Source of the DNA: Gemmatimonadota bacterium
GTDB lineage: Bacteria > Gemmatimonadota > Gemmatimonadetes > Gemmatimonadales > Gemmatimonadaceae
Length of the DNA stretch: 64,000 nt
Direction: 5' to 3'
Assembly: GCA_027307165.1 (NCBI GenBank)
Contig: DAHUXM010000034.1
Coordinates: 310,001 to 374,000 of the forward strand
Below the pieces are notes generated by a model that was given only the letters and a program-made list of their open reading frames with translations, did no database searches and had not been told where the DNA came from. Below are positions 20,330-48,421 of this stretch, in pieces. The translations under genes were made by a program, and so were the position numbers. Within the stretch, counting starts at the first letter, position 1; every line of letters begins with the position of its first letter.

Positions 20330-21384
20330 CGAGTGATCCGCGCGTCAATGCGAAGGATGCGGATGCGCCGCTCGACTACCGCGCAGCCGGAGTCGACATC
20401 GATGCCAGCGATGACGCCAAGCGCCGGATAAGGAAGCTCGTCGAATCGACGTACACCGCTGGTGTGCGTGGCGCGTTCGGAGCGTTCGGCGGGATGTTCC
20501 GCGTTCCCACGGATGTCACGAAGCCACTGCTCGTCGCATCCGCGGATGGTGTCGGCACCAAGACCAAAGTCGCGATCGAAGCCGGACGACACGACACTGT
20601 CGGACACGACCTCGTCAATCACTGCGTGAACGACATCCTCGTCCAGGGAGCAAAACCCCTCTTCTTTCTCGATTATGTAGCGTTCGGCAAGCTCGAGCCC
20701 GCGATCGTGGAAGCCGTGGTGTCGGGTGTTGCGGCCGGCTGCAATGAAAACGCCTGCGCGCTGCTCGGCGGCGAGACAGCGGAGATGCCGGGTATCTACA
20801 CGCCACCGGACTACGATCTCGCGGGTTTCATAGTCGGCTGCGTGAGCGAAGATTCAGTGCTCGGCCCCGACCGCGTTCGCGACGGCGACGCGCTCGTAGC
20901 ACTGGCAAGCACCGGCTTGCATACGAACGGATATTCGCTCGCGCGACGGATCGTTCAGGACCGGATGAAGCTTCGCGTCACGGATGCGTTTCCCGGGATG
21001 GACGTGACCGTCGCCGACGCGCTGCTTGCGGTGCACGCGTCGTATCTTGCGGCGGTTGGCCCGGCACTGGATCGGGTGCACGCAATGGCACACATAACAG
21101 GCGGCGGCATTCCCGGCAATCTGGACCGGGCGCTACCGCCCACGCTGGACGCCATCGTAAACCTCGCCAGCTGGGAAATACCGGTGCTGTTCCGCGAACT
21201 GGGACGTGCGGGAGATGTCGCGGTCAGCGACATGTTCCGATCGTTCAACATGGGTGTCGGGATGATCGTGGTCTGTGACGCCAGCGAGGTCGCGCCAGTC
21301 ATTCAACACGCAGCGCGCGCGGGGATTGCTGCATGGAGACTCGGCGAAGTTCGTCCGGGCTTCGGACGCGTCGTTCTCGAATAG
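20326..21384 (+). CDS. purM: Phosphoribosylformylglycinamidine cyclo-ligase (AIR synthetase)
   Basis: PurM closes the imidazole ring in the fifth step of purine synthesis, using ATP. It is 352 residues. Diagnostic segments are LDYRAAGVDIDA, the ATP-binding LLVASADGVGTKTK, HDLVNHCVNDILVQGAKPLFFLDY-type motif (seen as NDILVQGAKPLFFLDY), ALLGGETAEMPG and HITGGGIPGNLDR. The GTG at 20326 overlaps the TGA of the PfkB kinase. No other pur gene is next to it. Confidence 0.96.
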   Translation: MTSDPRVNAKDADAPLDYRAAGVDIDASDDAKRRIRKLVESTYTAGVRGAFGAFGGMFRVPTDVTKPLLVASADGVGTKTKVAIEAGRHDTVGHDLVNHCVNDILVQGAKPLFFLDYVAFGKLEPAIVEAVVSGVAAGCNENACALLGGETAEMPGIYTPPDYDLAGFIVGCVSEDSVLGPDRVRDGDALVALASTGLHTNGYSLARRIVQDRMKLRVTDAFPGMDVTVADALLAVHASYLAAVGPALDRVHAMAHITGGGIPGNLDRALPPTLDAIVNLASWEIPVLFRELGRAGDVAVSDMFRSFNMGVGMIVVCDASEVAPVIQHAARAGIAAWRLGEVRPGFGRVVLE

Positions 21385-21402
21385 TTCCCGTCAGGAGAGT
21401 CA

Positions 21403-22413
21403 ATGAAGCTCAAGTCGTCGAATATCGGGCCGCTCATCGCGGCATTGCTGCTCGTCCCATCTGCGCCGCTTGCCGCGCAGAGAACAGTGAACTCGCAGTG
21501 CTCTTCCATCGTAACCCAGGATGCGTGTCAGAAGGCGATCGACGTCTTCCAGTATCTCGCACCACAATTGGGTGTCATCATTTCCGGCGGTAACGCGACG
21601 CTCGGCGTCGGCGGCACACTCGGTGGTCTCGGCCACATCTACATCGGCGGCCGCGCGAACGTGGTCAATTCGAACATCCCGCGCGTCGACCAGGTCACAC
21701 CTGCGACGACCGGTGCTCGTTCGGATGAATATCCGACACAGTCGCAGATTGCAGGCATTCCACAGGCCGACGTCGCGATCGGACTGTTTCGTGGACTTCC
21801 TGTTGGCGTCACGAACGTGGGCGGAATCGACCTGCTCGGCAGCGTCAGCTATCTGCCTTCACTCGATGCGTCCGGCGTTCATATCAGTACACCGAACGGA
21901 GCCGTGAAATTCGGCGGCGGCGTGCGCGTTGGAATCGTTCAGGAAAGCATACTGTTCCCTGGGATCTCGGTCACGTATCTGCATCGCGGCCTTCCAACAG
22001 TCGACCTTGCAGCCAACGACGGTGGCGGCGACTCGCTCAATCTCAAGAACATCGATGTCAGCACCGATTCCTACAGGCTCGTCGCGAGCAAGAGTCTCCT
22101 CATGCTCGGCCTCGCAGCGGGCGTGGGGCAGGACCGCTACAGCTCGAGCGCAACCGGAAGCGGCTACGTTGCTGCACGCGGCGTCGCGGGCGTCGGAACA
22201 CCTGGCGAAGCGCTCGGCCCGATATCCATGAAGCAGAAGCTCACCCGCACGACGTACTTCCTGGATGCGACACTCAACTTCCCAATAATCAAGCTGATAG
22301 GCGAGATTGGCCGCACGAACTCGGTAGACGTTCCGACGTACAACTCCTTCGCAGGCGCTGCCCCCGGCTCGGCTCAGACCTACGGCGCACTTGGCGTTCG
22401 ATTCGGAATCTGA
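21403..22413 (+). CDS. Secreted outer-membrane-like protein of unknown function
   Basis: A 336-residue protein with a clear signal peptide cleaved near APLAAQ. The mature sequence is glycine-rich with repeating strand patterns and ends in YGALGVRFGI, a barrel-like C-terminus. The mature N-terminus contains two cysteines (QCSSIV and DACQ) that could form a disulfide. No enzyme motif was seen. ATG 21403 has AGGAG about 8 bases upstream. It is separated from ribD by only 4 bases and may share the riboflavin transcript without a metabolic link. Confidence 0.75.
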   Translation: MKLKSSNIGPLIAALLLVPSAPLAAQRTVNSQCSSIVTQDACQKAIDVFQYLAPQLGVIISGGNATLGVGGTLGGLGHIYIGGRANVVNSNIPRVDQVTPATTGARSDEYPTQSQIAGIPQADVAIGLFRGLPVGVTNVGGIDLLGSVSYLPSLDASGVHISTPNGAVKFGGGVRVGIVQESILFPGISVTYLHRGLPTVDLAANDGGGDSLNLKNIDVSTDSYRLVASKSLLMLGLAAGVGQDRYSSSATGSGYVAARGVAGVGTPGEALGPISMKQKLTRTTYFLDATLNFPIIKLIGEIGRTNSVDVPTYNSFAGAAPGSAQTYGALGVRFGI

Positions 22414-22417
22414 GCGC

Positions 22418-23437
22418 ATGGCCGATGCGCGCGACGAGCAGTTCATGCGTCGCGCGCTGGCGCTCGCGGAGCGTGGCTGGGGACAGACTGCGCCCAATCC
22501 GCTGGTCGGCGCAATCGTGGTGCGCGACGGCGAAATAGTCGGTGAGGGGTGGCACGAGCGGTACGGCGAAGCGCACGCCGAGATCAATGCGCTCGCGCGC
22601 GCTGGAAGTGCCGCACGGGGCGCGACGCTGTACGTCACGCTCGAGCCGTGCAATCACACAGGCAAGACGCCGCCGTGCTCGGATGCGGTGATTGCAGCGG
22701 GGCTTGCTCGCGTCGTCATAGCTGCGCGCGATCCCGGCGCCGACTCTGGCGGTGGGGCGGAGAAGCTGCGCGCGGCCGGCATCGACGTCGAGACCGGATT
22801 GCTGGAGCAGGAAGCGCGCGAGCTCAACGCGCCATTCTTTCACTCGTTCGTGTCGGATCGTCCGTGGGTGACGCTCAAGCTGGCGCTCTCGATCGACGGC
22901 GCGATTGCGGATTCCAAGCGCACCCGAGCCTGGCTCACGAACGAGGAATCGCGCGCCGAAGTCCACCGTATTCGCGCCAACGTGGACGCAATCGCCGTCG
23001 GGGCCACGACCTACGCCACGGACCATCCATCGTTGACGGTGCGTGGCCCGATCCAGCCGAGAGTGGCGCCCGTACGCGTGGTCTTCGATCCGGACGCCAG
23101 GTTATCGGCCGGTCGAACGTCCGTTCTAGAAGAAACGGACGCTGTTACATTCGTTCGCGTGGCCGATCTTGCGGCGTCGCTCCGAGCACTGCGGACACGC
23201 GGGATCCGCTCGCTGCTTGTAGAGGGCGGCGCGTCGCTCGCGTCGGCGCTGCTGGACGCGGAGCTGGTGGACAGGCTGGTTATCTTTCAGGCACCAATAG
23301 TATTGGGTGGAGGCGCGCTGGCGGCATTCTCTTCGACGTCGCCTCGCCGGGCGGAGAGCGTCCGCCGGATCCCGATACTGCGTCGCCAGGCCTTTGGCGA
23401 CGACCTGATGACTATTTATGCCCTGCACGCTGTTTGA
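22418..23437 (+). CDS. ribD: Bifunctional riboflavin deaminase/reductase RibD
   Basis: RibD catalyses the second and third steps of riboflavin synthesis: deamination of the pyrimidine ring, then NADPH reduction of the ribose. It is 339 residues. The deaminase domain has the zinc motifs HAEINAL and LEPCNHTGKTPPC. The reductase domain starts at WVTLKLALSIDG and has SLLVEGGASLASALL. ATG 22418 was chosen because it immediately precedes the conserved first helix (FMRRALALAERG). It opens the set ribD, ribE, ribBA, ribH. No FMN riboswitch was recognised upstream. Confidence 0.96.
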   Translation: MADARDEQFMRRALALAERGWGQTAPNPLVGAIVVRDGEIVGEGWHERYGEAHAEINALARAGSAARGATLYVTLEPCNHTGKTPPCSDAVIAAGLARVVIAARDPGADSGGGAEKLRAAGIDVETGLLEQEARELNAPFFHSFVSDRPWVTLKLALSIDGAIADSKRTRAWLTNEESRAEVHRIRANVDAIAVGATTYATDHPSLTVRGPIQPRVAPVRVVFDPDARLSAGRTSVLEETDAVTFVRVADLAASLRALRTRGIRSLLVEGGASLASALLDAELVDRLVIFQAPIVLGGGALAAFSSTSPRRAESVRRIPILRRQAFGDDLMTIYALHAV

Positions 23438-23440
23438 AGA

Positions 23441-24046
23441 ATGTTTACTGGACTGATTGACGAGGTCGGAACCATCGACCGCGTCGCCGATACGGACGCG
23501 GGTCGGGAGTTTCGGATTCGTGCTGGTTACGAAGCCCTTGTCTCTGGTGAGAGCATAGCGGTGAACGGAGCCTGCCTCACTGTGCGGGAGTCGGGCGATG
23601 GATGGTTCACCGTCGCGGCGATCGTCACCACGCTTGGCCGCACCGCGATCGACGGCTGGACTGTCGGCACACGCGTCAATCTCGAGCGCGCCATGCGGCT
23701 CGGCGACCGGCTCGGTGGCCACCTGGTTCAGGGACATGTGGACGAGGTCGGCGTCGTGCGCGAAGTACGGCGCGACGCCGATGCTCTCATAATCGACATC
23801 GACGTGTCGGCTGACATGTTCGCGTCGTTCGTTCCCGTCGGCTCCGTCGCGGTGGATGGCGTGAGCCTCACCGTCAATGCACTGCCGGCGGATCGCGTTC
23901 TTCAGATATCACTCATCGAATTCACGTTGCGCCACACCAATCTTGGCGATCTGCGCCGCGGTGCGCGCGTTCACATTGAAGCTGACATGATCGGGAAGTA
24001 CGTGCGGCGGCTGTTGACCCCATACACGGAGACGGTCGATGCCTGA
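23441..24046 (+). CDS. ribE: Riboflavin synthase alpha chain
   Basis: This enzyme dismutates two 6,7-dimethyl-8-ribityllumazine molecules to riboflavin. It is 201 residues made of two homologous lumazine-binding barrels. The N-terminal MFTGLIDEVG and the repeat signatures SIAVNGACLTV and SVAVDGVSLTV are intact, as is GGHLVQGHVDEVG. It begins 3 bases after ribD and overlaps ribBA by 8 bases. Confidence 0.97.
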   Translation: MFTGLIDEVGTIDRVADTDAGREFRIRAGYEALVSGESIAVNGACLTVRESGDGWFTVAAIVTTLGRTAIDGWTVGTRVNLERAMRLGDRLGGHLVQGHVDEVGVVREVRRDADALIIDIDVSADMFASFVPVGSVAVDGVSLTVNALPADRVLQISLIEFTLRHTNLGDLRRGARVHIEADMIGKYVRRLLTPYTETVDA

Positions 24047-25268
24047 GTCCGAATTGCCTGAACCCAGATTTGGAACCATCGAGCAGGCGCTGCGCGACAT
24101 CGCGGCGGGCAAGATGGTCATTGTAGCTGACGACGACGATCGCGAGAACGAAGGCGATCTGATCTGCGCCGCCGAACACATAACGGCTGAAGGCGTGAAC
24201 TTCATGATTCGGAAGGCGGGCGGACTCATCTGTCTCGCGTTGACTGGCGAGCGAGCCGATCATCTCGACCTTCCGCAGATGAGCGACTTCAATACCGAAG
24301 AGCAACGCACTGCGTTCACGGTCAGCATCGATGCCGCGCCTCGCTTCGGCGTCACGACCGGCATCAGCGCGCACGATCGCGCCGCGACGATCAGAGTCGC
24401 GGTGGATCCGAGCACGACGCGCGGCGATCTCAGACGTCCGGGGCACGTCTTTCCGCTGCGTGCACGCGAGGGTGGCGTGCTGCAACGCGTGGGCCACACC
24501 GAGGCGGCCATCGATCTTGCGCGGCTCTCCGGCATGCGTCCCGCTGGCGTCATCTGCGAGATACTCAACGAGGACGGAAGCGCGGCTCGACGACCGCAGC
24601 TGGAGCTCTTCGCGCGCAAGCACGGGCTCACCTTCGTCACCGTTGCGCAGCTCGTCGCGTACCGGTTGCGCACCGAGCGACTGGTGCATCGCATTGCGGA
24701 GGCACGCCTTCCGACCAATCACGGCGAGTGGCGCATCATCGGCTATCGCAACGACGTCGATCAACACGAGCACGTGGCGCTCGTACACGGACATGTACTG
24801 GGCGAGTCGGGCGTGCTCGTCAGAATGCACTCCAAGTGCCTCACGGGCGACGTGTTCCACTCGCAGCGCTGCGATTGCGGCTGGCAGCTCGACACGGCGA
24901 TGGAGATGATCCACGCGGAAGGGCGGGGTGTCATCGTATATCTCGACCAGGAAGGGCGCGGCATTGGTCTGCTGAACAAGCTAAAGGCCTACCAGCTGCA
25001 GGACGAGGGCAAGGACACCGTCGAGGCGAACGAGGCACTCGGCTTCGGTCCCGACCTGCGCAACTACGGAATCGGCGCGCAGATACTGCTCGATCTCGGC
25101 CTGCGCTCGATGCGCGTGATGACGAACAATCCGCGCAAGCTCGTCGGACTGGAGGGATATGGGCTCACGGTCGATGACCGTGTGCCGATAGTTCCACCGT
25201 CCACCAGCGAAAACGCGCACTATCTCAAGACAAAGCAGGCGAAGCTCGGGCATCTGCTCGCGTCGTAA
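24039..25268 (+). CDS. ribBA: Bifunctional DHBP synthase / GTP cyclohydrolase II
   Basis: A 409-residue fusion supplying both riboflavin precursors. The N-terminal RibB domain (about 1-208) converts ribulose 5-phosphate to DHBP and has the acidic loop [18 protein letters not shown]. The C-terminal RibA domain opens GTP and has the zinc cysteines in [16 protein letters not shown] and the catalytic segment [18 protein letters not shown]. Both active-site regions look complete, so both functions are expected. It overlaps ribE by 8 bases. Confidence 0.96.
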
Positions 25269-25312
25269 CTGCGACGTCCTGCAACTCCGTGCAACGCACC
25301 TAAACGAAATCA

Positions 25313-25792
25313 ATGGCAGAGTTCAACGGAACACCGCGCGGCTCGGGGCGACGTGTGGTAGTCGTCGCGAGTCGCTTCAACGAGACGATCACACGTCCGC
25401 TCGTCGACGGCGCCCTGGAGGCGCTGGTCGCGCACGAGGTGGCATTCGACGACATCGATGTGGTCTGGGTGCCCGGCGCGTGGGAGCTGCCGCTCGCAGC
25501 GCGGCGCGCGCTCGAGAGCGGACGCTACGATGCGCTCGTTGCGCTTGGCGCGGTCATCCGGGGCGATACCCCACACTTCGATTTCGTTGCGGGCGAGGCG
25601 TCTCGCGGCCTCGCGCTGGTGTGCATCGATGCCGGAATCCCGATCGGCTTCGGGCTGTTGACCTGCGACACCATGGATCAGGCGCTCGCGCGCGCTGGAG
25701 GCGTACACGGAAACAAGGGCTGGGATGCCGCCGTAGCGGCGCTCGAGACGACCGACGTCCTGGATCAGATCGAGCCAGCCGATGAGGGTTGA
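25313..25792 (+). CDS. ribH: 6,7-dimethyl-8-ribityllumazine synthase
   Basis: Lumazine synthase condenses the RibD product with DHBP and forms pentamers or icosahedral capsids. It is 159 residues. Family motifs are VVASRFNETIT, VWVPGAWELPLAA, the loop ALGAVIRGDTPHFDFVA with the catalytic His, and the GNKGWDAA end. A 44-base gap separates it from ribBA, and its 3' end overlaps nusB by 11 bases. The ribH-nusB pairing is common in bacteria. Confidence 0.96.
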   Translation: MAEFNGTPRGSGRRVVVVASRFNETITRPLVDGALEALVAHEVAFDDIDVVWVPGAWELPLAARRALESGRYDALVALGAVIRGDTPHFDFVAGEASRGLALVCIDAGIPIGFGLLTCDTMDQALARAGGVHGNKGWDAAVAALETTDVLDQIEPADEG

Positions 25793-26192
25793 GTCGCGCG
25801 CGCGCTCACGCGCGCTGCAGGCCCTGTATGCGTGGGACATGCGCGATGGCACCGCGCTGGATCGCGTTGCGCAGCAGGTGTGGGACGATCTCGTCGTATC
25901 GCAGGAAGAGCAACAATTTGCCGGATTCCTCGTTCGGATCCTGATGGCACGCGGCGAGGAGATCGACAGGTCGCTGAGTGCCGTAACGACGAACTGGCGG
26001 CTGAGCCGCATCGGCGCGATCGAGCGATCGGTGCTGCGACTCGCGATCGCAGAACTGTTGCAGGGCACCACGCCGCCGCGCGTCGTGATCAAGGAATCAG
26101 TCCGGCTTGCAGAACGTTACGGGAGCGAGCAGAGCGCGCGCTTCGTGAACGGAGTGCTCGACGCGTACGCGCGCCAGCAGGGTATGCTCTGA
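25782..26192 (+). CDS. nusB: Transcription antitermination factor NusB
   Basis: NusB binds boxA RNA with NusE (S10) in rRNA antitermination complexes. The 136-residue all-helical protein shows the N-terminal ARSRALQALYAWDM helix, the central NWRLSRIGAIERSVLRLAIAEL segment, and the C-terminal VVIKESVRLAERYGSEQSARFVNGVLD signature in consecutive helices. ATG 25782 lies inside ribH. Confidence 0.94.
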   Translation: MRVESRARSRALQALYAWDMRDGTALDRVAQQVWDDLVVSQEEQQFAGFLVRILMARGEEIDRSLSAVTTNWRLSRIGAIERSVLRLAIAELLQGTTPPRVVIKESVRLAERYGSEQSARFVNGVLDAYARQQGML

Positions 26193-26195
26193 CCG

Positions 26196-27299
26196 TTGCG
26201 CATCCTCGTCATCAACTGGCAGGATCGTGAGAACCCGCATGCTGGTGGCGCGGAGCTGCATCTGCACGAAGTATTCGGCCGCATAGTAGACAAGGGTCAC
26301 GAAGTCGATCTGTTGTGCAGCGGCTTCGCCGGCGCTGCGACCGACGTCATCCTGGACGGAATTCACGTGCATCGCGTCGGCTCGCGTTTTTCCTTCCCGC
26401 TGCACGCCCACAGTGCATACCAGTCGCTGGTCGCGAAACACGACTACGACATCGTCGTCGAAGATCTGAACAAGATTCCGCTCTATACGCCGCGATGGAA
26501 GCCGCGCAAGCTCGTCGTTATCACGCACCATCTGTTCGGCACGACTGCGTTCCGGGAGGAGTCGCTGCCGGTTGCAGCGGCGACGTGGCTCGCCGAACGC
26601 CCGCTTGGCGTCGGCTACCGTGGCGTTGCATTTCAGGCAGTCAGCCAGAGCACTCGCGACGACCTGGTAATTCGCGGCATTCCCGCAGACCAAATCGAGG
26701 TCATATACAACGGGGTCGATGTAGAGGCCTTGACGCCCGATCCGAACGTACGTTCGGAAACCCCATTGTTCTCTTATCTGGGCAGGTTGAAGCGCTACAA
26801 GCGGGTCGATCTCGTTGTGAGAGCCTTCGCCTTGCTCGATGCGCGCGAAGCTCGCCTGGAGATTGCAGGCAAGGGTGATGATCGTGACCGACTGGAATCA
26901 CTCGTGACAAAACTCAATATCGAGGACCGGGTTCGATTCCTGGGGTATATCACGGAAGTGGGAAAGCGGGATCTGTTGCGACGTTCATGGGCGACCGTTC
27001 TTGCCTCTCCCAAAGAGGGCTGGGGGATCAGTAACTTGGAGTCAGCAGCGTGCGGTACACCGGTGATCGCCGCGGACTCGCCTGGCATCAGGGAGTCGGT
27101 GGTTGATGGCGATACCGGTTTTCTTGTCCCGGGTTCGGATGTGGCTGCATATGCGGCTGCCATGAGAGGGTTGCTTGATTCACCAGAGCTCGTCACGACC
27201 TTAGGAGCCAACGCGCGCCGTTTCGCCGAAACCTTCACGTGGGAACGCGCAGCGGCAGAGACGTTGGCACATCTCCAACATGTAGCCAGGGGAGCGTAG
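26196..27299 (+). CDS. Glycosyltransferase, GT4 family
   Basis: A GT-B fold transferase of 367 residues. The N-terminal acceptor domain begins MRILVINWQDRENPHAGGAE, a segment common in GT4 enzymes acting on surface glycans or glycolipids. The C-terminal nucleotide-sugar domain has FSYLGRLKRYKRVDLVVRA and the retaining-GT motif SPKEGWGISNLESAACGTPVIA with its Glu-x7-Glu pattern. Start TTG 26196 follows nusB by 3 bases. Sugar donor and acceptor cannot be read from sequence. It is remote from the polysaccharide locus at 54-64 kb. Confidence 0.88.
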   Translation: MRILVINWQDRENPHAGGAELHLHEVFGRIVDKGHEVDLLCSGFAGAATDVILDGIHVHRVGSRFSFPLHAHSAYQSLVAKHDYDIVVEDLNKIPLYTPRWKPRKLVVITHHLFGTTAFREESLPVAAATWLAERPLGVGYRGVAFQAVSQSTRDDLVIRGIPADQIEVIYNGVDVEALTPDPNVRSETPLFSYLGRLKRYKRVDLVVRAFALLDAREARLEIAGKGDDRDRLESLVTKLNIEDRVRFLGYITEVGKRDLLRRSWATVLASPKEGWGISNLESAACGTPVIAADSPGIRESVVDGDTGFLVPGSDVAAYAAAMRGLLDSPELVTTLGANARRFAETFTWERAAAETLAHLQHVARGA

Positions 27300-27300
27300 C

Positions 27301-27615
27301 ATGGATATCCAATTCCACGGACATCAGGCCGAGATCACGGATGGGCTTCGCATGAAAGCGGAGGAGGGAGTTCAGAAGTTGATGGAGCATCTCGGCAGAC
27401 CAGTCGACGCAGACGTCTGGGTGAGCGAGGACGGCGTCAAGAAGACCGTGGAACTGGTGCTGCGTGCACCGCATTTCGACAATCTTGTCGCGAAGGGTGA
27501 AGGGAAGTATCACGAGCCGGCGTTGACCAACGCGATCGCCAAGCTGGACGCGCAGATTCGCCGTCTCAAGACTGCGAAGAAGAAGCAGGTTCACGAGGCC
27601 GAGCTGCGCGCGTGA
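27301..27615 (+). CDS. hpf: Ribosome hibernation promoting factor, short form
   Basis: A 104-residue HPF/RaiA/YfiA-type protein that binds the 30S subunit and silences ribosomes in stationary phase or starvation. It has the beta-alpha-beta-beta-beta-alpha layout: MDIQFHGHQAEIT, a long helix with KAEEGVQKLMEHL, VELVLRAPHF, and the second helix LTNAIAKLDAQIRRLK with a basic tail. The long-form dimerisation domain is absent. It heads the HPr kinase/PTS string and overlaps hprK as GTGA, linking a starvation factor to carbon sensing. Confidence 0.9.
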   Translation: MDIQFHGHQAEITDGLRMKAEEGVQKLMEHLGRPVDADVWVSEDGVKKTVELVLRAPHFDNLVAKGEGKYHEPALTNAIAKLDAQIRRLKTAKKKQVHEAELRA

Positions 27616-28583
27616 CGCGCCATCCCACTGTCGGCGAGCTGTTTGAACGGCTCGCCGACCCGCTGCAACTCGATGATCTGGGCGGCGGCGTGGGACTCCA
27701 GCGCCATCTACCGGGACCGGAAATTTCCAGTCCCGGCCTGGCGCTGTCGGGTTACGTCGGACGCTTCGTATCGGATCGGCTTCAGGTGCTCGGCGAGACG
27801 GAGGTGAGTTATCTCAACTCACTCGATGCCGCGCGGCGCGAGGAGATCATCAAGCTCTTCTTCTCCTTTCACCTTCCGGCCGTATTCATCACGAAGGGCC
27901 AGGAGCCGCCTGACGGATTGCGTGAGCGGGCGCGTGACGCCGAAACGGCGCTGATTCGGACGGCGCTATCGACGGCCGAATTCTACAGCGGCGTGAAACC
28001 GGCGCTGGAAGAATTATTTGCTCCGACAACCACACTGCATGGCTCGCTCGCTGACGTTTACGGAGTGGGCCTCTTCTTTACCGGCGCGAGCGGTATCGGA
28101 AAATCGGAGTGCGTGCTGGATCTCGTCGAGCGGGGCCATCGGCTGGTTGCCGACGATATGGTCATCGTATCCCGGCGCGGCCACGACCTGCTCATCGGCC
28201 GCGCGCACGAGATGGCGGCGCACCACATGGAAATTCGGGGCGTCGGACTCATCAACATTCCGTCCATCTTCGGCATTCGCTCGGTGCGGCAGCAGAAGCG
28301 GATTGAAGTTGTGGTGCATCTGGAGACCTGGGACCGCAACGCGCCGGTGGAACGCACCGGCCTCGACGCCTCCACGGCGAGCATCCTGGGGGTCGAGATT
28401 CCCAAGATCACCATACCGCTGAATCCCGGAAAGAACATCACGGTCATAGCGGAGGTGATTGCAATGAACCATCTTCTGCACTACTCCGGAATAAATCCGG
28501 CGGAACAGTTCAACGAGCGCCTGATTCAACGGATGCAGAAGGCATCAGCGATCCGGCGCTACCTGCAGGAGGATGTCGAGTAG
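27612..28583 (+). CDS. hprK: HPr kinase/phosphorylase
   Basis: HprK phosphorylates or dephosphorylates HPr on a regulatory serine in response to ATP, glycolytic intermediates and phosphate. It is 323 residues. The C-terminal catalytic domain has the P-loop GASGIGKS (158-165), the following RGHRLVADD with catalytic His/Asp, and the HprK signature MEIRGVGLINIPSIFG. The N-terminal domain with FHLPAVFITKG matches the hexamer-forming domain. GTG 27612 overlaps the hpf stop. A matching HPr with Ser46 is encoded 2.4 kb downstream. Confidence 0.95.
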   Translation: MTRHPTVGELFERLADPLQLDDLGGGVGLQRHLPGPEISSPGLALSGYVGRFVSDRLQVLGETEVSYLNSLDAARREEIIKLFFSFHLPAVFITKGQEPPDGLRERARDAETALIRTALSTAEFYSGVKPALEELFAPTTTLHGSLADVYGVGLFFTGASGIGKSECVLDLVERGHRLVADDMVIVSRRGHDLLIGRAHEMAAHHMEIRGVGLINIPSIFGIRSVRQQKRIEVVVHLETWDRNAPVERTGLDASTASILGVEIPKITIPLNPGKNITVIAEVIAMNHLLHYSGINPAEQFNERLIQRMQKASAIRRYLQEDVE

Positions 28584-28976
28584 ATGGATCCTGACGTCGC
28601 GCCGCGCGCGATTGTCGCCGGACACGGCGCACTTCCAGGCGGTCTGGTTTCCGCCGTCGAACAGATAACCGGACGCGGCAATGCTCTCATTCCCTTCTCC
28701 AACGTCGGGTTGGGGCGCGCGGAGATCGAGAGCGGGCTGCGCGATCTGCTGGCGTTGCACGGCGTGAACGTGGTGTTTACCGACCTGCCCGGCGGCAGCG
28801 CGACGTTTGCTGCGCGCCGCGTGCAGCATGATACGCCGGGCCTCATCGTCGTAACCGGCGTCAGCCTTGCCGCGCTGATGGACTTCGTCTTCTGTGACGC
28901 GGAGATGCCCGCCGGTGAATCGACTGCACGTGCAGTCGAGAAGGGGCGCGCAGCCATCGCCTCCGTCGCGATCTGA
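28584..28976 (+). CDS. PTS EIIA component, mannose family
   Basis: A 130-residue PTS-IIA (EIIA-Man fold) protein that accepts phosphate from HPr on a histidine. The expected active-site His is residue 14 in IVAGHGALPGG. It starts directly after the hprK stop codon and ends directly before EIIB. As it is separate from EIIB, phosphate must pass through a protein-protein contact, unlike the fused ManX of enteric bacteria. Confidence 0.9.
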   Translation: MDPDVAPRAIVAGHGALPGGLVSAVEQITGRGNALIPFSNVGLGRAEIESGLRDLLALHGVNVVFTDLPGGSATFAARRVQHDTPGLIVVTGVSLAALMDFVFCDAEMPAGESTARAVEKGRAAIASVAI

Positions 28977-29468
28977 ATGCCGATAGCGCTCTACCGAATC
29001 GACGACCGATTGATACACGGACAGGTCGTCGTTGGCTGGGGGCAGCCACTGGATCTCGGCTTCATCCTTCTGGTCGACGATGCGGTCGCAGAATCCGACT
29101 GGGAGCAGGAGCTCTACCGCCTCGGTGTTCCGCCGAGCATGGACGTGTATTTCGCGTCGACGAGCGAAGCGGCGCGCGAGATCGCGAAATACGCGTCAGA
29201 TCGGCGCACAGGAATGGTGCTCACGGGAACTGTGGAAGCGATGTTGCAGCTTGCGCGCACGGCGGTGCTGCCGATCAAAGCGGTGAACGTTGGCGGCATT
29301 CATCACCGTGAGGATCGCACGCAGAAGATGCGCTACGTGTTCCTCACGAAAGGCGAAGAGCAGGATCTGCGCAGCATGGCCGAGCTGGGCGTGGTCGTCA
29401 CTGCGCAGGACGTTCCGTCCGCGCCCAGTCACTCGCTGGAAGAGTTGCTACTCGGATGCATGACGTGA
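28977..29468 (+). CDS. PTS EIIB component, mannose/sorbose family
   Basis: A 163-residue cytoplasmic EIIB that passes phosphate from EIIA to the incoming sugar. The active-site histidine is in the canonical RIDDRLIHGQV (His15). The conserved NVGGIHHREDRTQ segment is typical of the sorbose/mannose family. It overlaps EIIC by 13 bases. The transported sugar cannot be decided by sequence inspection; mannose, glucose, fructose, sorbose and amino sugars are all known for this family. Confidence 0.94.
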   Translation: MPIALYRIDDRLIHGQVVVGWGQPLDLGFILLVDDAVAESDWEQELYRLGVPPSMDVYFASTSEAAREIAKYASDRRTGMVLTGTVEAMLQLARTAVLPIKAVNVGGIHHREDRTQKMRYVFLTKGEEQDLRSMAELGVVVTAQDVPSAPSHSLEELLLGCMT

Positions 29469-30160
29469 CAGTCGAATCCATCCTCTTCAGCATAGTGCCG
29501 GTATCGCTGCTGGGAGCTGTGACCGGGTTGGACATGGTGAGCTTTCCGCAGATGATGTTGTCGCGCCCTCTCGTATCAGCCACGCTTGGCGGCGCGTTCG
29601 TCGGGCGGCCGGCGGCCGGACTCCTGATCGGTGCGGTGCTCGAGCTGATCGCGCTCGAGACCCTCCCATTCGGCGCATCGCGTTACGCGGAGTGGGGAAC
29701 TGCCGGTGTCGTGGGTGGAGTGGTGATGGCGGGCCAGCCGGCAGGCGCGGCGGGCGCGCTTCCCGTCGCGATGTTCACGGCGCTCGCGACCGCGGTCTTC
29801 AGCAGCCGAAGCATGGTGTGGGTCCGTACCTGGAATGCCCATCAGGCGCGCCGGCTGCGTACGGCGATCGATGCCGGCTCGCCAGCGGCCGTTGACAATC
29901 TGCAATTGCGCGGCCTCACGATGGATCTGGTGCGCGGCTTCGTCGTGACGTTCGTCGCGCTCATCGTGCTGTTTCCGCTGTCGGAAGAGATCGTCGCGAT
30001 CTGGGGCGTCGATGCGATTCATTCCCGCGCTGTCGTGACAGCGCTCGCGGCCACCGTGGCCGCCGGCGCGATCTGGACGCTCACGCACCGCGCGGCGCGA
30101 GCGGGTTGGCTCTTCGTGCTCGGGCTTGGTGCCGGCACCGCACTGTTGCTGCTGCAATGA
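29456..30160 (+). CDS. PTS EIIC component, mannose/sorbose family
   Basis: A 234-residue membrane subunit forming the sugar channel with EIID. Early segments ARE typical of the family: GLDMVSFPQMMLSRPLVSATLGG and the AGLLIGAVLELIALETLPFGAS stretch. Several hydrophobic helices run to the C-terminus. It is slightly shorter than enteric ManY. Start ATG 29456; its stop overlaps the EIID start as ATGA, consistent with stoichiometric production of the IIC-IID pair. Confidence 0.92.
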   Translation: MHDVTVESILFSIVPVSLLGAVTGLDMVSFPQMMLSRPLVSATLGGAFVGRPAAGLLIGAVLELIALETLPFGASRYAEWGTAGVVGGVVMAGQPAGAAGALPVAMFTALATAVFSSRSMVWVRTWNAHQARRLRTAIDAGSPAAVDNLQLRGLTMDLVRGFVVTFVALIVLFPLSEEIVAIWGVDAIHSRAVVTALAATVAAGAIWTLTHRAARAGWLFVLGLGAGTALLLLQ

Positions 30161-30942
30161 CGGCACCACAGCTGCACAAATGGGCGCGTCGCGATCCCGG
30201 GACTCCGGCGCCGGTCGGGAAGGCGGCCATCGCCGCGGCGTTCATCCGGCTGTTCGCAGTGCAGGGGTCGTGGAACTACGAGACGATGCTCGGCAACGGG
30301 ATCGCGTTCAGCATGAAACCGTTGCTCAAGGATCTGCCCGAAGATCGATACCACTCCGCGATGGCCCGCCAGGCGCGCTACTTCAACGCGCATCCGTACC
30401 TCGCAGGCGTGGCCGTGGGATCGCTGGCGCGGGCGGAGCTGGATGGCGAAAACCCCGCCCGCATCGAGCGATTCCGAACCGCTCTCTGCGGTCCCCTTGG
30501 CAGCGTCGGCGACCAGCTCGTCTGGGCCGGCTGGCTCCCGCTGTGCTCGCTCATTGCTCTGACAACGTTCGCGCTCGGAGCGGGCCCGCTGGCGGTGGTG
30601 TGTATCTTTCTTGGCGTCTACAATGTTGGCCATGTCGCGCTGAGGGCGTGGGGGCTTCGGGTCGGGCTCAGAAGCGGAATGCGTGTTGCGCCCGCGCTTG
30701 CCAATCCGGTTTTCAGAGAGTGGCCCGCCGCGCTGGCACGAATTTCGGCGGTGCTTGCGGGACTGATCCTGCCACTCGCACTGCAGCGCATCATTGGACC
30801 CGGACGCGTTCTAGCCGGTGGTGTTGCAGTCGTCGCGGTGATCGGCGCCGTCATTCTTGCTCGTTTCGGCGCGCGTGCAACGGGTTGGCGCGCCGCGCTC
30901 GGAGTGCTGGCGATCTTTGTCCTCTACTCGGTGGCACGTTGA
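30157..30942 (+). CDS. PTS EIID component, mannose/sorbose family
   Basis: The second membrane subunit of the transporter, 261 residues. Family hallmarks are FIRLFAVQGSWNYETMLGNG near the N-terminus, ARQARYFNAHPYLAGVAVG, and the cytoplasmic loop FRTALCGPLGSVGDQLVWAG. Hydrophobic helices follow. ATG 30157 overlaps the EIIC stop, and its own stop overlaps the HPr start, so transporter and phosphocarrier are coupled. Confidence 0.93.
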   Translation: MTAPQLHKWARRDPGTPAPVGKAAIAAAFIRLFAVQGSWNYETMLGNGIAFSMKPLLKDLPEDRYHSAMARQARYFNAHPYLAGVAVGSLARAELDGENPARIERFRTALCGPLGSVGDQLVWAGWLPLCSLIALTTFALGAGPLAVVCIFLGVYNVGHVALRAWGLRVGLRSGMRVAPALANPVFREWPAALARISAVLAGLILPLALQRIIGPGRVLAGGVAVVAVIGAVILARFGARATGWRAALGVLAIFVLYSVAR

Positions 30943-31208
30943 TGGCGGAGCGAACGGTTACGATCGTGAACAAGAACGGAGTCCACGCGCGACCTGCCGC
31001 CGAGATCGTCAAGACGGCCGGGAAGTTCGCCAGCAATGTTACAATCGTACGCGACGATCTCGAGGTGAACGGCAAGAGCATCATGGGAGTGATGATGCTG
31101 GCCGCAGAGTGCGGTTCCGAGATAATTCTGCGCGCCACGGGACCGGATGCGGATGCCGCGATCGATGCGCTGGCGGAACTCGTGGCGACAAAGTTCGGGG
31201 AACGGTAG
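30942..31208 (+). CDS. ptsH: Phosphocarrier protein HPr
   Basis: An 88-residue HPr that carries phosphate from enzyme I to EIIA. The catalytic His15 is in NKNGVHARPAA, and the regulatory Ser46 is in NGKSIMGVMML, the site recognised by HPr kinase, which is encoded upstream. Both phosphorylation sites are therefore intact. ATG 30942 overlaps the EIID TGA, and enzyme I begins directly after its stop. Confidence 0.96.
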   Translation: MAERTVTIVNKNGVHARPAAEIVKTAGKFASNVTIVRDDLEVNGKSIMGVMMLAAECGSEIILRATGPDADAAIDALAELVATKFGER

Positions 31209-33011
31209 GTGCCTCGCGCAATCGTCGGTCTGCCGGCCTCTCCAGGGATCGTCGTAGGACCGGTACATCTTCTCCGCTGGGAAGTACCACAGGTGCGGCA
31301 GCGCATCATCGCGGACGAGCAGGTCGGTCCCGAAATCGCTCGATTCGAAGACGTGGTCGCGCGGGCGCGGACGCGTCTTGGCCAGATCCGGGACCGCGTC
31401 AGCGCTCACGCGGGCGAGGAGGAGGCTGCCATCTTCGATGTGCAGCTGGCGATGCTCGACGACGTCGAACTGCTGGACAACGTGCGCGCTCTGATTCATC
31501 AGAATCTCGGAGCGGAGAAGGCATTCGACCTCGTCATGGCGGACTGGCGGCAGAGCTTTGCGCGACACACCCATCAGATGCTGCGCGAGCGCGTCGCCGA
31601 CCTCACCGACGTGCACATCCGCGTGTTGTCGATGCTGCTCGGTCTTGCGGATCGCGATCCGGTGGATCTCCCGAAGGGCTCCAATGCGATACTAGTCACG
31701 CACGACCTGACCCCCAGCCTCACCGTGCAACTGGATCGCGACGCGATAGCCGCGATCGCGACCGACGCCGGTACGCGAACCTCGCACGTTGCAATTCTCG
31801 CGCGGTCTCTGGGTCTCCCCGCGGTTGTTGGCCTGCGCGATGCCACAACCCAGTTGCATCCCGGAGATCGCGTAATTCTCGACGGCTCGCTGGGCGTCGT
31901 TGTTCCGAATCCAACCGAAGCTCAGATTGCGGCGTACGCGGAGCGTGCGGTGAGGGATGCATCGGATGACGCGGCGATGCGCGCGATCGCGAGCGCGGAA
32001 CCGGTCACTCTGGATGGAGTGCGAATCATACTGCGCGCGAACGTCGACCTGCCGGACGAGGCGGCCGCCGCTGCCGGGAGTGGTGCGGAAGGTGTGGGTC
32101 TGATGCGCACCGAATTCCTCGCCGTCGGTCGCGCAACGATGCCGGACGAGGAAGAGCAGTTCCGCGCGTATCAGGGCGTCGTGTGCGCATTCGGAAACCA
32201 TCCCGTCGTCATTCGTACATTCGATGTGGGCGGTGACAAGCTGCCGATTCGTGGATATGCGAGCGAGGCGAATCCATTCCTTGGCTGGCGCGCGATTCGT
32301 GTCTGTCTGGACGAGCCGGAGCTGTTCAAGACTCAGCTGCGTGCGCTATTGCGAGCAGCGATGTTCGGCGACGTGCGCATCATGCTGCCGTTGATCGTCA
32401 CGCTGGATGAAGTGCGCGCCGCGCGGCGGCTGCTCAGGGAAGCATCCGATGAGCTCACCGCGCGCGGTGTGGAGCATCGCAGCGACGTACCGCTGGGCGT
32501 GATGGTGGAGACTCCGGCCGCGGCGATCGGCGCTGACATCCTGGCACCCGAAGTCGCGTTCTTCAGCATCGGTACGAACGATCTCGTTCAGTACACGCTC
32601 GCCGTCGATCGCGGCAACGTGAATCTGGCCGCGCGCTTCACGCCGCTGCACCCCTCGGTGCTGAGGCTGATCCGGCGTACGGTGCAGGCCGGCACTGCCG
32701 CGGGACTGGAAGTGGCTGTCTGCGGCGAAATGGCATCGCAGCCTCTGATGGCCTTTGCGCTCATCGGGCTGGGGGTTCGCCAGTTGAGCGTGGGCGCACA
32801 GTCGGTCGCGCTCGTCAAACGGGTCATCCGCGGGATAAGCGTGGACGTGGCCCGGGCGGCGGCTGACTCGGCGATGCTCGCCGGTACCGCCGAGGAAGTG
32901 GAGCAGGTACTCCGCGGCGCGGTTCGGTCCGCCTTTGGGGATGCCCCGTTTCTGCGGTACGGATTGCCCGTCAAGGGTGATCTGGATATGTTTGGAGACG
33001 CCGGCGCTTGA
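31209..33011 (+). CDS. ptsI: Phosphoenolpyruvate-protein phosphotransferase (PTS enzyme I)
   Basis: Enzyme I takes phosphate from PEP and passes it to HPr. It is 600 residues. The HPr-binding helical domain is followed by the swivelling domain with active-site His193 in DAGTRTSHVAILARSLGLPA. The C-terminal PEP-binding barrel has EGVGLMRTEFL, the LPLIVTLDEVRAARRLL stretch, and the FFSIGTNDLVQYTLAVDRGN signature; the catalytic Cys lies in VAVCGEMAS. GTG 31209. It is the last PTS gene before metK. Confidence 0.96.
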   Translation: MPRAIVGLPASPGIVVGPVHLLRWEVPQVRQRIIADEQVGPEIARFEDVVARARTRLGQIRDRVSAHAGEEEAAIFDVQLAMLDDVELLDNVRALIHQNLGAEKAFDLVMADWRQSFARHTHQMLRERVADLTDVHIRVLSMLLGLADRDPVDLPKGSNAILVTHDLTPSLTVQLDRDAIAAIATDAGTRTSHVAILARSLGLPAVVGLRDATTQLHPGDRVILDGSLGVVVPNPTEAQIAAYAERAVRDASDDAAMRAIASAEPVTLDGVRIILRANVDLPDEAAAAAGSGAEGVGLMRTEFLAVGRATMPDEEEQFRAYQGVVCAFGNHPVVIRTFDVGGDKLPIRGYASEANPFLGWRAIRVCLDEPELFKTQLRALLRAAMFGDVRIMLPLIVTLDEVRAARRLLREASDELTARGVEHRSDVPLGVMVETPAAAIGADILAPEVAFFSIGTNDLVQYTLAVDRGNVNLAARFTPLHPSVLRLIRRTVQAGTAAGLEVAVCGEMASQPLMAFALIGLGVRQLSVGAQSVALVKRVIRGISVDVARAAADSAMLAGTAEEVEQVLRGAVRSAFGDAPFLRYGLPVKGDLDMFGDAGA

Positions 33012-33105: not shown

Positions 33106-34275
33106 GTGTCCGAACGCCATCTTTTCACGTCCGAATCCGTCACCGAAGGCCACCCCGACAAGATCGCCGATCAGATTTCCGACGCGATCCTGGATGCGAT
33201 CCTCACCGATGATGCCACCGCGCGCGTAGCGTGCGAGACACTTGTGACGACTGGTCTTGCGGTTGTCGCGGGCGAGATCACGACCGACACGTACGTGCCA
33301 GTGCCGGACATCGTCCGCGAGACCATCGCGCGCATCGGCTACACTGACGCGACGTTCGGCTTCGACTGCAATACGTGCGCGGTCATGAGCACGATCGACC
33401 GTCAGTCGCCGGATATCGCGCAGGGTGTCGATACGGGTGGCGCTGGCGATCAGGGAATGATGTTCGGCTACGCCAGCGACGAAACGCCGGAGTTGATGCC
33501 GCTTCCCATCCAGCTCGCGCACCGCATCACGCACGCGCTTGCGGACTACCGTCGCGCTGGCGGAAAGAAGTGGCTGCGTCCGGATGGCAAGGCGCAGGTA
33601 ACGGTCGTGTACGAAGATCACATCCCCGTGGCAGTCGACACGGTGGTCGTGTCGACGCAGCACAGCGACGACATATCGACGCGTCGCCTGCGCCAGGCGA
33701 TCATGTCGGAGGTGATCGAGCCGAACATCCCTAAGGAGATGCGCGGGCGCGGCATCAAGTATCACATCAATCCAACAGGTCGCTTCGTGATCGGCGGCCC
33801 GCAGGGCGACGCCGGTCTCACGGGACGCAAGATCATCGTGGATACCTACGGCGGAATGGGCCGGCACGGCGGCGGTGCGTTCTCGGGCAAGGATCCGTCC
33901 AAGGTCGATCGGTCAGCGTGCTACGCTGCCCGCTGGGTTGCAAAGAACGTCGTCGCCGCAAAGCTGGCGCGGCGGTGCGAGGTGCAGCTTGCGTACGCGA
34001 TCGGCGTTGCGCGGCCGGTGTCGGTGGCGATCGACACGTTCGGGACGGGCACTGTGCCTGATTCCGCGATCACTCGCGCAGTGAGCGAGGTTTTCGACCT
34101 CACACCGCGTGGGATCATCACTGCGCTGGATCTGCGCAAGCCGATCTACACCCCGACGGCATCGTACGGTCACTTTGGCCGGACGCCCGAAAAGATCGGA
34201 CGCGGACGGAACGCTGCCACGTTGTTCACGTGGGAGCGTACGGATCGCGCGGCGGCGTTGAAGAAGGCAGTCTAG
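33106..34275 (+). CDS. metK: S-adenosylmethionine synthetase
   Basis: MetK makes SAM from methionine and ATP. It is 389 residues. The ATP-binding [20 protein letters not shown], the hexapeptide GAGDQG within [17 protein letters not shown], and the P-loop-like [17 protein letters not shown] are all present. The GTG start at 33106 puts the first motif at residue 7. The 94 bases separating it from ptsI show no SAM riboswitch that could be recognised by eye. SAM demand in this window includes miaB and the methyltransferase at 60 kb. Confidence 0.97.
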
Positions 34276-35990: not shown

Positions 35991-36010
35991 CTTCACCACA
36001 TAATTGATTT

Positions 36011-36158
36011 TCGCGGTCGGGGGACACGGAAGCCGGTGAAATGCCGGCGCGGCCCCGCCACTGTAACGGGCAGTAAGCGTATCTGAGGTCCCACTGGCTG
36101 AGCTGGCCGGGAAGGGAGATGCGACGGCCCGGAGCCAGGAGACGACCTTCGTCCGCGC
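36011..36158 (+). ncRNA. Cobalamin (B12) riboswitch
   Basis: The adenosylcobalamin/cobalamin aptamer is recognisable by its conserved blocks in order: GCCGGTGAAATGCCGG (P3 region), CCGCCACTGTAACGGG at 36055-36070, the CCACTGG block, CCGGGAAGGG, and the B12 box AGCCAGGAGAC at 36133-36143. It precedes btuF-btuC-btuD-btuB, as expected for repression of B12 uptake when cobalamin is plentiful. End points are approximate. Confidence 0.95.
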
Positions 36159-36231
36159 CACATCTTACAGACCCTCGGGGGAGGGCTGGTGGCGTTGTAC
36201 GTCGTCGCCTGTCGATCTCGTACATACGTTG

Positions 36232-47777: not shown

Positions 47778-48152
47778 TAACGTTCTCCGGGTTTTAAAAA
47801 GCGTCGAAAGAGGCGTGGGGCTCGGTGAAGCGTGCCGACAGTTGGCAACTCGCGTACCGATCGCGGGCCGGTGCTGGGCGGCGTCACCAGGTGAGTGATT
47901 CAAGGCCTTTGGTGTCAACGAGTTACCGTGTGAGGCGCCGGCGTTCTCTGTGCGTTTCCGGGTCAGAACCGTCGAACGTCCCGCCAGATGTCCCCGGACA
48001 CTTTGCAGGACTTCCCCGACAACCTGTTGCGCCGAGTCAACGGATACTGGCCGTCCGTACATGTGGATAAGTGGGGAGGGGCTTCGTTGACTGGCCTGCG
48101 CCGGCTGGCTATGTTGCTAGGCTGTGGAATCGGCGGCTCACCACCCCGATCT
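47778..48152. other. Gene-free stretch between the PEP-CTERM gene and the tRNA genes
   Basis: No plausible coding frame was found. The left half should contain the leftward promoter of the PEP-CTERM gene, though none was clear; the right end holds the rightward tRNA promoter described separately. Confidence 0.5.
48087..48115 (+). promoter_or_regulatory. Sigma-70-type promoter for tRNA-Ser
   Basis: TTGACT at 48087-48092 and TATGTT at 48110-48115 are separated by exactly 17 bases, ending 37 bases before the first tRNA. This fits a housekeeping promoter driving the tRNA gene. Confidence 0.65.
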
Positions 48153-48239
48153 GGACAGGTGGCAGAGCGGTTGAATGCACCGGTCTCGAAAACCGGCATA
48201 CCTGCAAGGGTATCGAGAGTTCGAATCTCTCCCTGTCCG
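48153..48239 (+). tRNA. tRNA-Ser (anticodon CGA)
   Basis: An 87-base class II tRNA. The acceptor stem GGACAGG/CCTGTCC, anticodon stem CCGGT/ACCGG with loop CTCGAAA (anticodon CGA at 48187-48189), long variable arm and T-arm with GTTCGAAT are all formed. It reads UCG codons. CCA is not encoded; the discriminator G is followed by a run of T. Confidence 0.96.
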
Positions 48240-48247
48240 TTTTTTCG

Positions 48248-48285
48248 AGCCGCCCTCACGCACCGGGACGGCGGCTTCGTTTTTT
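48248..48285 (+). terminator. Intrinsic terminator after the first tRNA-Ser
   Basis: A 7-base stem AGCCGCC/GGCGGCT is followed within a few bases by six T residues at 48280-48285. It separates the two tRNA genes into distinct transcripts or partly attenuates read-through. Confidence 0.65.
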
Positions 48286-48321
48286 GTGCGAGTGCTGTTG
48301 GCGTATCGATAAGAAGTTGTT

Positions 48322-48408
48322 GGACAGGTGGCCGAGCGGTTGAAGGCGCACGCCTGGAAAGCGTGTATACGTGAAAGCGTATCGAGGGTTCGAATCCCTC
48401 TCTGTCCG
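48322..48408 (+). tRNA. tRNA-Ser (anticodon GGA)
   Basis: An 87-base class II tRNA, clearly related to the CGA gene upstream. The acceptor stem is GGACAG/CTGTCC plus a G-T pair, the anticodon stem CACGC/GCGTG encloses CTGGAAA (anticodon GGA at 48356-48358), and a long variable arm is present. It reads UCC and UCU. CCA is not encoded. Confidence 0.96.
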
Positions 48409-48421
48409 TGATTCCCTCCGT

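Follow-up and report, generated by a model that had tools for sequence, protein, structure and literature searches.

What is served by a row of genes in which a ribosome hibernation factor and the HPr kinase HprK stand directly in front of a whole mannose-type phosphoenolpyruvate (PEP):sugar phosphotransferase system (PTS)? Such a row lies in the 64,000-nucleotide stretch of DNA analysed here (the window; positions 310,001–374,000 of contig DAHUXM010000034.1, GenBank assembly GCA_027307165.1) from a member of Gemmatimonadota, a phylum of soil and water bacteria. The original prediction for this DNA described hpf, hprK, EIIA, EIIB, EIIC, EIID, ptsH and ptsI as one unusual string, in which both transport and HprK-based signalling look functional and a ribosome-silencing factor is coupled to them in a unified response to carbon starvation. 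We regard as probable a reading that retains the transport and HprK part of this picture: the string is the single, complete, vertically inherited PTS of Gemmatimonadota, throttled by HprK at Ser46 of HPr, with hpf not required.

A complete and conserved string

The eight genes are arranged head-to-tail on the plus strand at 27301–33011 of the window, and all of them exceed the Pfam gathering cut-offs (Table 1). As read from the DNA, hpf and hprK overlap by 4 bp, EIIB and EIIC by 13 bp, EIIC and EIID by 4 bp (ATGA), EIID and ptsH by 1 bp (TGATG), and the hprK/EIIA, EIIA/EIIB and ptsH/ptsI junctions have neither gap nor overlap; EIID starts at the ATG of its ATGA overlap with EIIC rather than at the TTG at 30106. 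The predicted contiguity, with overlaps or near-zero gaps, thus holds, while the genes, described as fused, are all separate. Nor is the string limited to these eight genes, as it runs on upstream through GT4 (a glycosyltransferase gene), nusB, ribH, ribBA, ribE and ribD, and downstream to metK, forming a longer block ribD-E-BA-H-nusB-GT4-(hpf)-hprK-EIIABCD-ptsH-ptsI-metK.

A comparison of gene order across the phylum, proposed along with the prediction, shows the string to be real, ancient and conserved phylum-wide; in sequence, it is divergent. EIID is present in one copy per genome in 247 out of 297 genomes of the phylum (83%), and the closest named relatives of the EIID studied here, 82–89% identical, are from Gemmatimonadota. 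The same hprK-to-EI (enzyme I) order was observed in each of the other 16 EIID-bearing loci inspected at first, and the order hprK–EIIA–EIIB–EIIC–EIID–HPr–EI is complete and unbroken in 61 out of 61 loci with enough flanking DNA (of 80 named loci); hence, the arrangement is not due to chance. In the named loci, the string is nearly always preceded by nusB and GT4 and followed by metK, as it is in the other 16, with EI and metK consecutive in 61 out of 63 loci.

Some apparent absences and defects are of a different kind. The lack of EIID in genome G119 was rejected as a biological loss, the contig ending inside the string just before ptsH, and the absences in G002, G192 and G253 are suspect, since their assemblies are in fragments, ptsN is retained in two of them, and the string is present in most relatives. 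In one of the 16 loci (L051; G156:C1:781000-797000), EI looks frame-shifted, its ORF scoring far below its counterparts and lacking the RTEF and CGE motifs, while the remaining string is intact.

The residues needed for phosphate transfer are in place. HPr His15 and Ser46 and EI His193, reported as intact in the original prediction, are confirmed by the alignment, together with His14 of EIIA and His14 of EIIB. The phospho-acceptor histidines of all four proteins, HPr Ser46 (21 out of 21) and the HprK motifs, that is, Walker A (GASGIGKS, with the lysine intact) and the signature MEIRGVG, are conserved across 21 loci; His14 is found in every EIIA aligned, and the histidine of the EIIB motif HGQVV.GWG in every EIIB aligned. 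HprK has both domains and scores 337 bits against the TIGR00679 equivalog cut-off of 240, which, along with these motifs and the Ser46-bearing HPr as a substrate, assigns it to the bifunctional kinases/phosphorylases. EI and HPr reach the NCBIfam family cut-offs, and EI lacks the N-terminal GAF domain of the PTS-Ntr type (PEP-utilisers_N begins at residue 7 according to Pfam). An EIIA of the EIIA-man family and a sorbose-type EIIB, both with the phospho-acceptor histidine, together with an EIIC (EII-Sor) and an EIID (EIID-AGA), make up the set of a mannose-family permease.

The membrane subunits are conserved as well, though far from the annotated ones. The four EII subunits all stay below the NCBIfam subfamily cut-offs (TIGR00824, TIGR00854, TIGR00822 and TIGR00828 for EIIA, EIIB, EIIC and EIID, respectively), which are naming thresholds of annotated subfamilies, not family limits, and hence we see a divergent EII branch; EIID relatives borne on plasmids are ordinary AgaD/ManZ types with about 33% identity or less. 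AlphaFold2 models of EIIC and EIID have mean confidence scores (pLDDT) of 84 and 80, and their PDB matches with significant E-values are only Man-PTS EIIC and EIID chains, respectively. The ratio of nonsynonymous to synonymous substitution rates (dN/dS, omega) relative to the closest relatives L045, L066 and L067 is 0.04–0.07 for EIIC and 0.03–0.07 for EIID, that is, both are under strong purifying selection (comparisons with L056 and L070 were not used due to dS near saturation, and the hprK value for L066 was ignored as a mis-hit, the L066 contig beginning inside the string). In EIID, the Q/W, HPY, GD and N positions are invariant in the alignment. Taken together, the strong purifying selection and the Man-PTS folds of the models make it likely that EIIC and EIID form a working Man-PTS transporter, and a complete transport-competent PTS with HprK is the best reading of active-site residues, selection and predicted fold.

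Several observations weigh against this reading. EIIA, EIIC and EIID are weak matches, EIIC scoring 38 bits against an NCBIfam cut-off of 340 and EIID 83 bits against one of 293, and the C-terminal third of EIID, beyond the profile match, is of low confidence in the model. The DEFQ motif of Escherichia coli ManY is not kept in EIIC, the aligned stretch being FPQM, and thus substrate handling may differ from that of ManY. Promoter and terminator scans of the window yielded counts at the chance level. Finally, the HPr of one genome in which no HprK was found (G065) retains Ser46, which, however, says little either way.

Transport, sensing and the place of hpf

According to family knowledge and the intact residues, phosphate would pass from PEP to EI His193, HPr His15, EIIA His14, EIIB His14 and finally to the sugar, which the EIIC/EIID pair would carry across the inner membrane. 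HprK would add phosphate to HPr Ser46 and remove it, throttling the flow to the mannose-family transporter and to EIIA-Ntr, the other HPr client found. The genome encodes one standalone EIIA-Ntr (ptsN, motif GIAIPHCRS; L065:5471-5923, minus strand, G000:C12), unlinked to the string; in about 15 genomes from some other families of the phylum, ptsN lies convergent to the string, 6–10 kb downstream of it. Full-length EIIA-Ntr matches were obtained in 26 out of 26 EI-bearing genomes tested, whereas the standalone protein is missing in eight out of eight genomes of EI-less lineages, where matches are weak and mostly inside proteins of more than 700 residues, or there are none. That EIIA-Ntr tracks EI is consistent with a supply of phosphate from HPr to EIIA-Man as well as EIIA-Ntr, as co-occurrence rather than proof.

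Two candidate partners, CcpA and RapZ, were looked for and rejected. The genome has no match to PF00356 and hence no LacI-family protein such as CcpA, the same search being positive in nine out of 14 control genomes; thus, the CcpA search suggested earlier gave no Firmicute partner for Ser-P-HPr. No RapZ was found in the genome search, either. Since CcpA is absent, Ser-P-HPr most likely would brake the phosphate relay directly, reducing the flow to EIIA-Man and EIIA-Ntr, rather than act via transcription control of the Firmicute type.

The strongest competing explanation is that this PTS is mainly a regulatory sensor, whose EIIC and EIID bind sugar and set the phosphorylation of EIIA, HPr and EIIA-Ntr, bulk uptake being of little importance. 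HPr, EI and EIID are each encoded by a single gene found in the genome, and no PF02378-type EIIC, that is, no second sugar EII of this type, was detected; a lone EII complex, the diverged EIIC motif, the presence of HprK and EIIA-Ntr, and a lineage retaining hprK, EIIA, HPr and EI without any EIIB, EIIC or EIID would all suit a sensor. However, EIIB and its histidine are invariant wherever EIIC and EIID occur, in the lineage devoid of EIIB, EIIC and EIID all three went together, as would befit a transporter module, and the predicted fold class is that of elevator transporters. We therefore consider a primarily sensory role unlikely.

Much less survives of the proposal that hpf, HprK and the PTS are one carbon-starvation unit tying sugar supply to ribosome hibernation. 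Its appeal comes from the 4 bp that hpf and hprK share in the window, from the position of hpf directly before hprK in 48 out of 48 loci having hpf and enough room, and from the same adjacency in Geobacter (PMC2725144). The factor is of the short type, PF02482 covering only residues 3–92 without the C-terminal domain of long HPF, and at 38.9 bits just misses the TIGR00741 cut-off of 40.9. Against the proposal, 22 out of 61 strings lack hpf, its place having closed up: the GT4–hprK distance is 289–475 bp with hpf and from -4 to 153 bp without it (excluding one outlier on each side, from a mis-called end). The gene is also gone from nearly all of those genomes, as an S30AE search in 21 of them, several being draft metagenome-assembled genomes, gave no match in 20 and one match below the cut-off. 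Conversely, genomes of genera g66 and g70 devoid of hprK, EI and EIID keep hpf at the same site beside nusB or GT4 (g66 also beside metK). The presence of hpf thus varies independently of that of the PTS, an argument against a built-in starvation unit; we rejected hpf as an obligate partner, and the originally predicted link between ribosome silencing and the PTS appears highly improbable. The gene is an optional neighbour, not a built-in or required part, and probably shares the locus through ancestral gene order and possibly co-transcription.

Two further observations concern hibernation factors. Many Gemmatimonadota seem to have no S30AE-family factor at all (20 out of the 21 genomes searched; loci L068, L071, L074 and 19 further ones lack hpf). 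The source genome has a second S30AE protein (L064:3775-4548; G000:C27, about 20774-21547), in an open reading frame (ORF) beginning with a single CBS domain (PF00571 and PF02482); given an odd intervening stretch, this may be a genuine CBS–S30AE protein, or else the reading frame of a damaged CBS gene that runs on into an hpf-like one.

The weakest explanation, that EIIC and EIID are degenerate, non-functional remnants, could be drawn from the low scores against curated subfamily models, but is contradicted by the purifying selection, the fold matches, and the retention of EIID and its invariant positions over most of the phylum, and was rejected as barely conceivable.

Surroundings of the string

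The plus strand carries nearly all genes from about 17.4 to 42.7 kb of the window; delineation of operon boundaries via promoters and terminators was rejected, the scan counts being at the chance level. A flavin mononucleotide riboswitch controlling the rib–PTS string was considered and rejected, as the window scan yielded none, the sole riboswitch being of the cobalamin type. The latter is situated directly upstream of a gene for a Peripla_BP_2 protein and an ORF resembling a permease, which probably form a BtuF/BtuC operon for B12 uptake. Two tRNA-Ser genes form a tandem further downstream.

Table 1. Genes of the string, its neighbours and other features, in window coordinates.
Feature	Position	Strand	Evidence
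hpf, short-type ribosome hibernation factor, 104 aa, S30AE domain alone	27301..27615	+	PF02482, E 6e-12
hprK, HPr(Ser) kinase/phosphorylase, 323 aa, GTG start	27612..28583	+	PF02603+PF07475; TIGR00679 equivalog
EIIA, mannose family, 130 aa, phospho-acceptor His14	28584..28976	+	PF03610, E 1e-5 (passes the gathering cut-off)
EIIB, mannose/sorbose family, 163 aa, phospho-acceptor His14	28977..29468	+	PF03830, E 2e-36
EIIC, membrane subunit, 234 aa	29456..30160	+	PF03609, E 3e-13
EIID, membrane subunit, 261 aa	30157..30942	+	PF03613, E 6e-28
ptsH, HPr, 88 aa, His15 and Ser46	30942..31208	+	PF00381, E 2e-32
ptsI, enzyme I, 600 aa, His193	31209..33011	+	PF05524+PF00391+PF02896; TIGR01417, 519 bits
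GT4-family glycosyltransferase, ends 1 bp before hpf; conserved neighbour	26196..27299	+	PF00534/PF13439
ribD, ribE, ribBA, ribH, nusB; upstream part of the codirectional string	22421..26192	+	ORFs; RibD by Pfam; same order in nearly all relatives
metK, conserved downstream neighbour, 94 bp after ptsI	33106..34275	+	ORF
Cobalamin riboswitch	36003..36165	+	81.6 bits
Tandem tRNA-Ser genes (CGA, GGA), 80 bp apart	48152..48409	+

Loss at one locus and systems already described

Partial strings were found at the same locus. Genus g61 (L041–L043) keeps hpf-hprK-EIIA-HPr-EI without EIIB, EIIC and EIID; in G016 (L044), EIIA is also lost and hprK-HPr-EI remains; in G065 (L159), only hpf-HPr-EI is present; and in g66 (L155–L157), hpf alone is left. 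In the tree of EI and HprK, g61 forms one clade (100%) beside EIID-bearing f5 genomes, the nodes that join them having 68–70% support; loss in place would give this pattern. It is possible, if rather doubtful as a whole, that one unmoved locus displays every step from a sugar PTS with HprK via a regulatory PTS to nothing (the full string, then without EIIBCD, without EIIA, without HprK, and none), and that the leftover core of HprK, HPr and EIIA-Ntr would be a CcpA-free signalling system operating by braking of the phosphate relay alone.

A similar history has been proposed for Proteobacteria, whose ancestral rpoN cluster comprises ptsK (hprK), IIA-Man, ptsH/ptsO, ptsI and ptsN, and would have had a full mannose-class PTS, with EIIB, EIIC and EIID lost in most lineages (Comas et al., 2008; PMC2405797). 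As in Gemmatimonadota, hprK is linked there to a mannose-family EIIA, HPr and EI, and the later loss leaves a regulatory remnant; the contrast with hprK-bearing diderm bacteria lacking a transporter, drawn in the original prediction, is correct (PMC2405797). Desulfovibrio vulgaris has a putative full mannose-class PTS within such an rpoN cluster (PMC2405797), the likeness being by published description, not by sequence, and Geobacter sulfurreducens has the order rpoN-yfiA(hpf)-hprK, in which an hpf-type gene adjoins hprK (PMC2725144). Hence, the string is less unusual than predicted: both the hprK-linked mannose-class PTS and the hpf–hprK adjacency are already on record in Proteobacteria.

The differences are in the surroundings. 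The neighbours in Gemmatimonadota are rib-nusB-GT4 and metK, not rpoN; neither rpoN nor rapZ is among the conserved neighbours (rpoN was not searched elsewhere in the genome), and ptsN is either distant or unlinked. Unlike in G. sulfurreducens, no rpoN adjoins hpf and hprK, and a full EII follows. Compared with E. coli ManXYZ and the Firmicute Man-PTS (PDB:6k1h, 7dyr, 7vlx, 8hfs), all subunit families and the fold class of EIIC and EIID are shared, whereas identity is about 20–30%, some EIIC motifs are changed, EIIA and EIIB are separate genes, and the EII genes are linked to hprK, ptsH and ptsI. The HprK signature and HPr Ser46 are common with the Firmicute repression system, which differs in having CcpA. 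With PTS-Ntr (EI-Ntr/NPr/EIIA-Ntr), the string shares an EIIA-Ntr that HPr could feed, and differs in the GAF-less EI and in that HPr would also serve a sugar EII.

We found no description of the string in Gemmatimonadota in the open-licence literature; what is added here is a string fixed phylum-wide amid other neighbours, an EII branch that has diverged and a series of staged losses. A second phylum thereby contributes evidence for the view of Comas et al. (2008) that regulatory PTSs without a transporter are what remains of a complete mannose-class system. The findings also are a caution against inferring function from the hpf–hprK adjacency. To our knowledge, HprK has no agreed job in diderm bacteria without CcpA. 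Gemmatimonadota offer an unusually simple background for testing its role, since the source genome has HPr, EI, a sugar EII and EIIA-Ntr in one copy each, all but EIIA-Ntr in one operon-like string, and since the phylum also includes lineages with HprK but no transporter, as well as one genome that seemingly lacks HprK while keeping HPr and EI.

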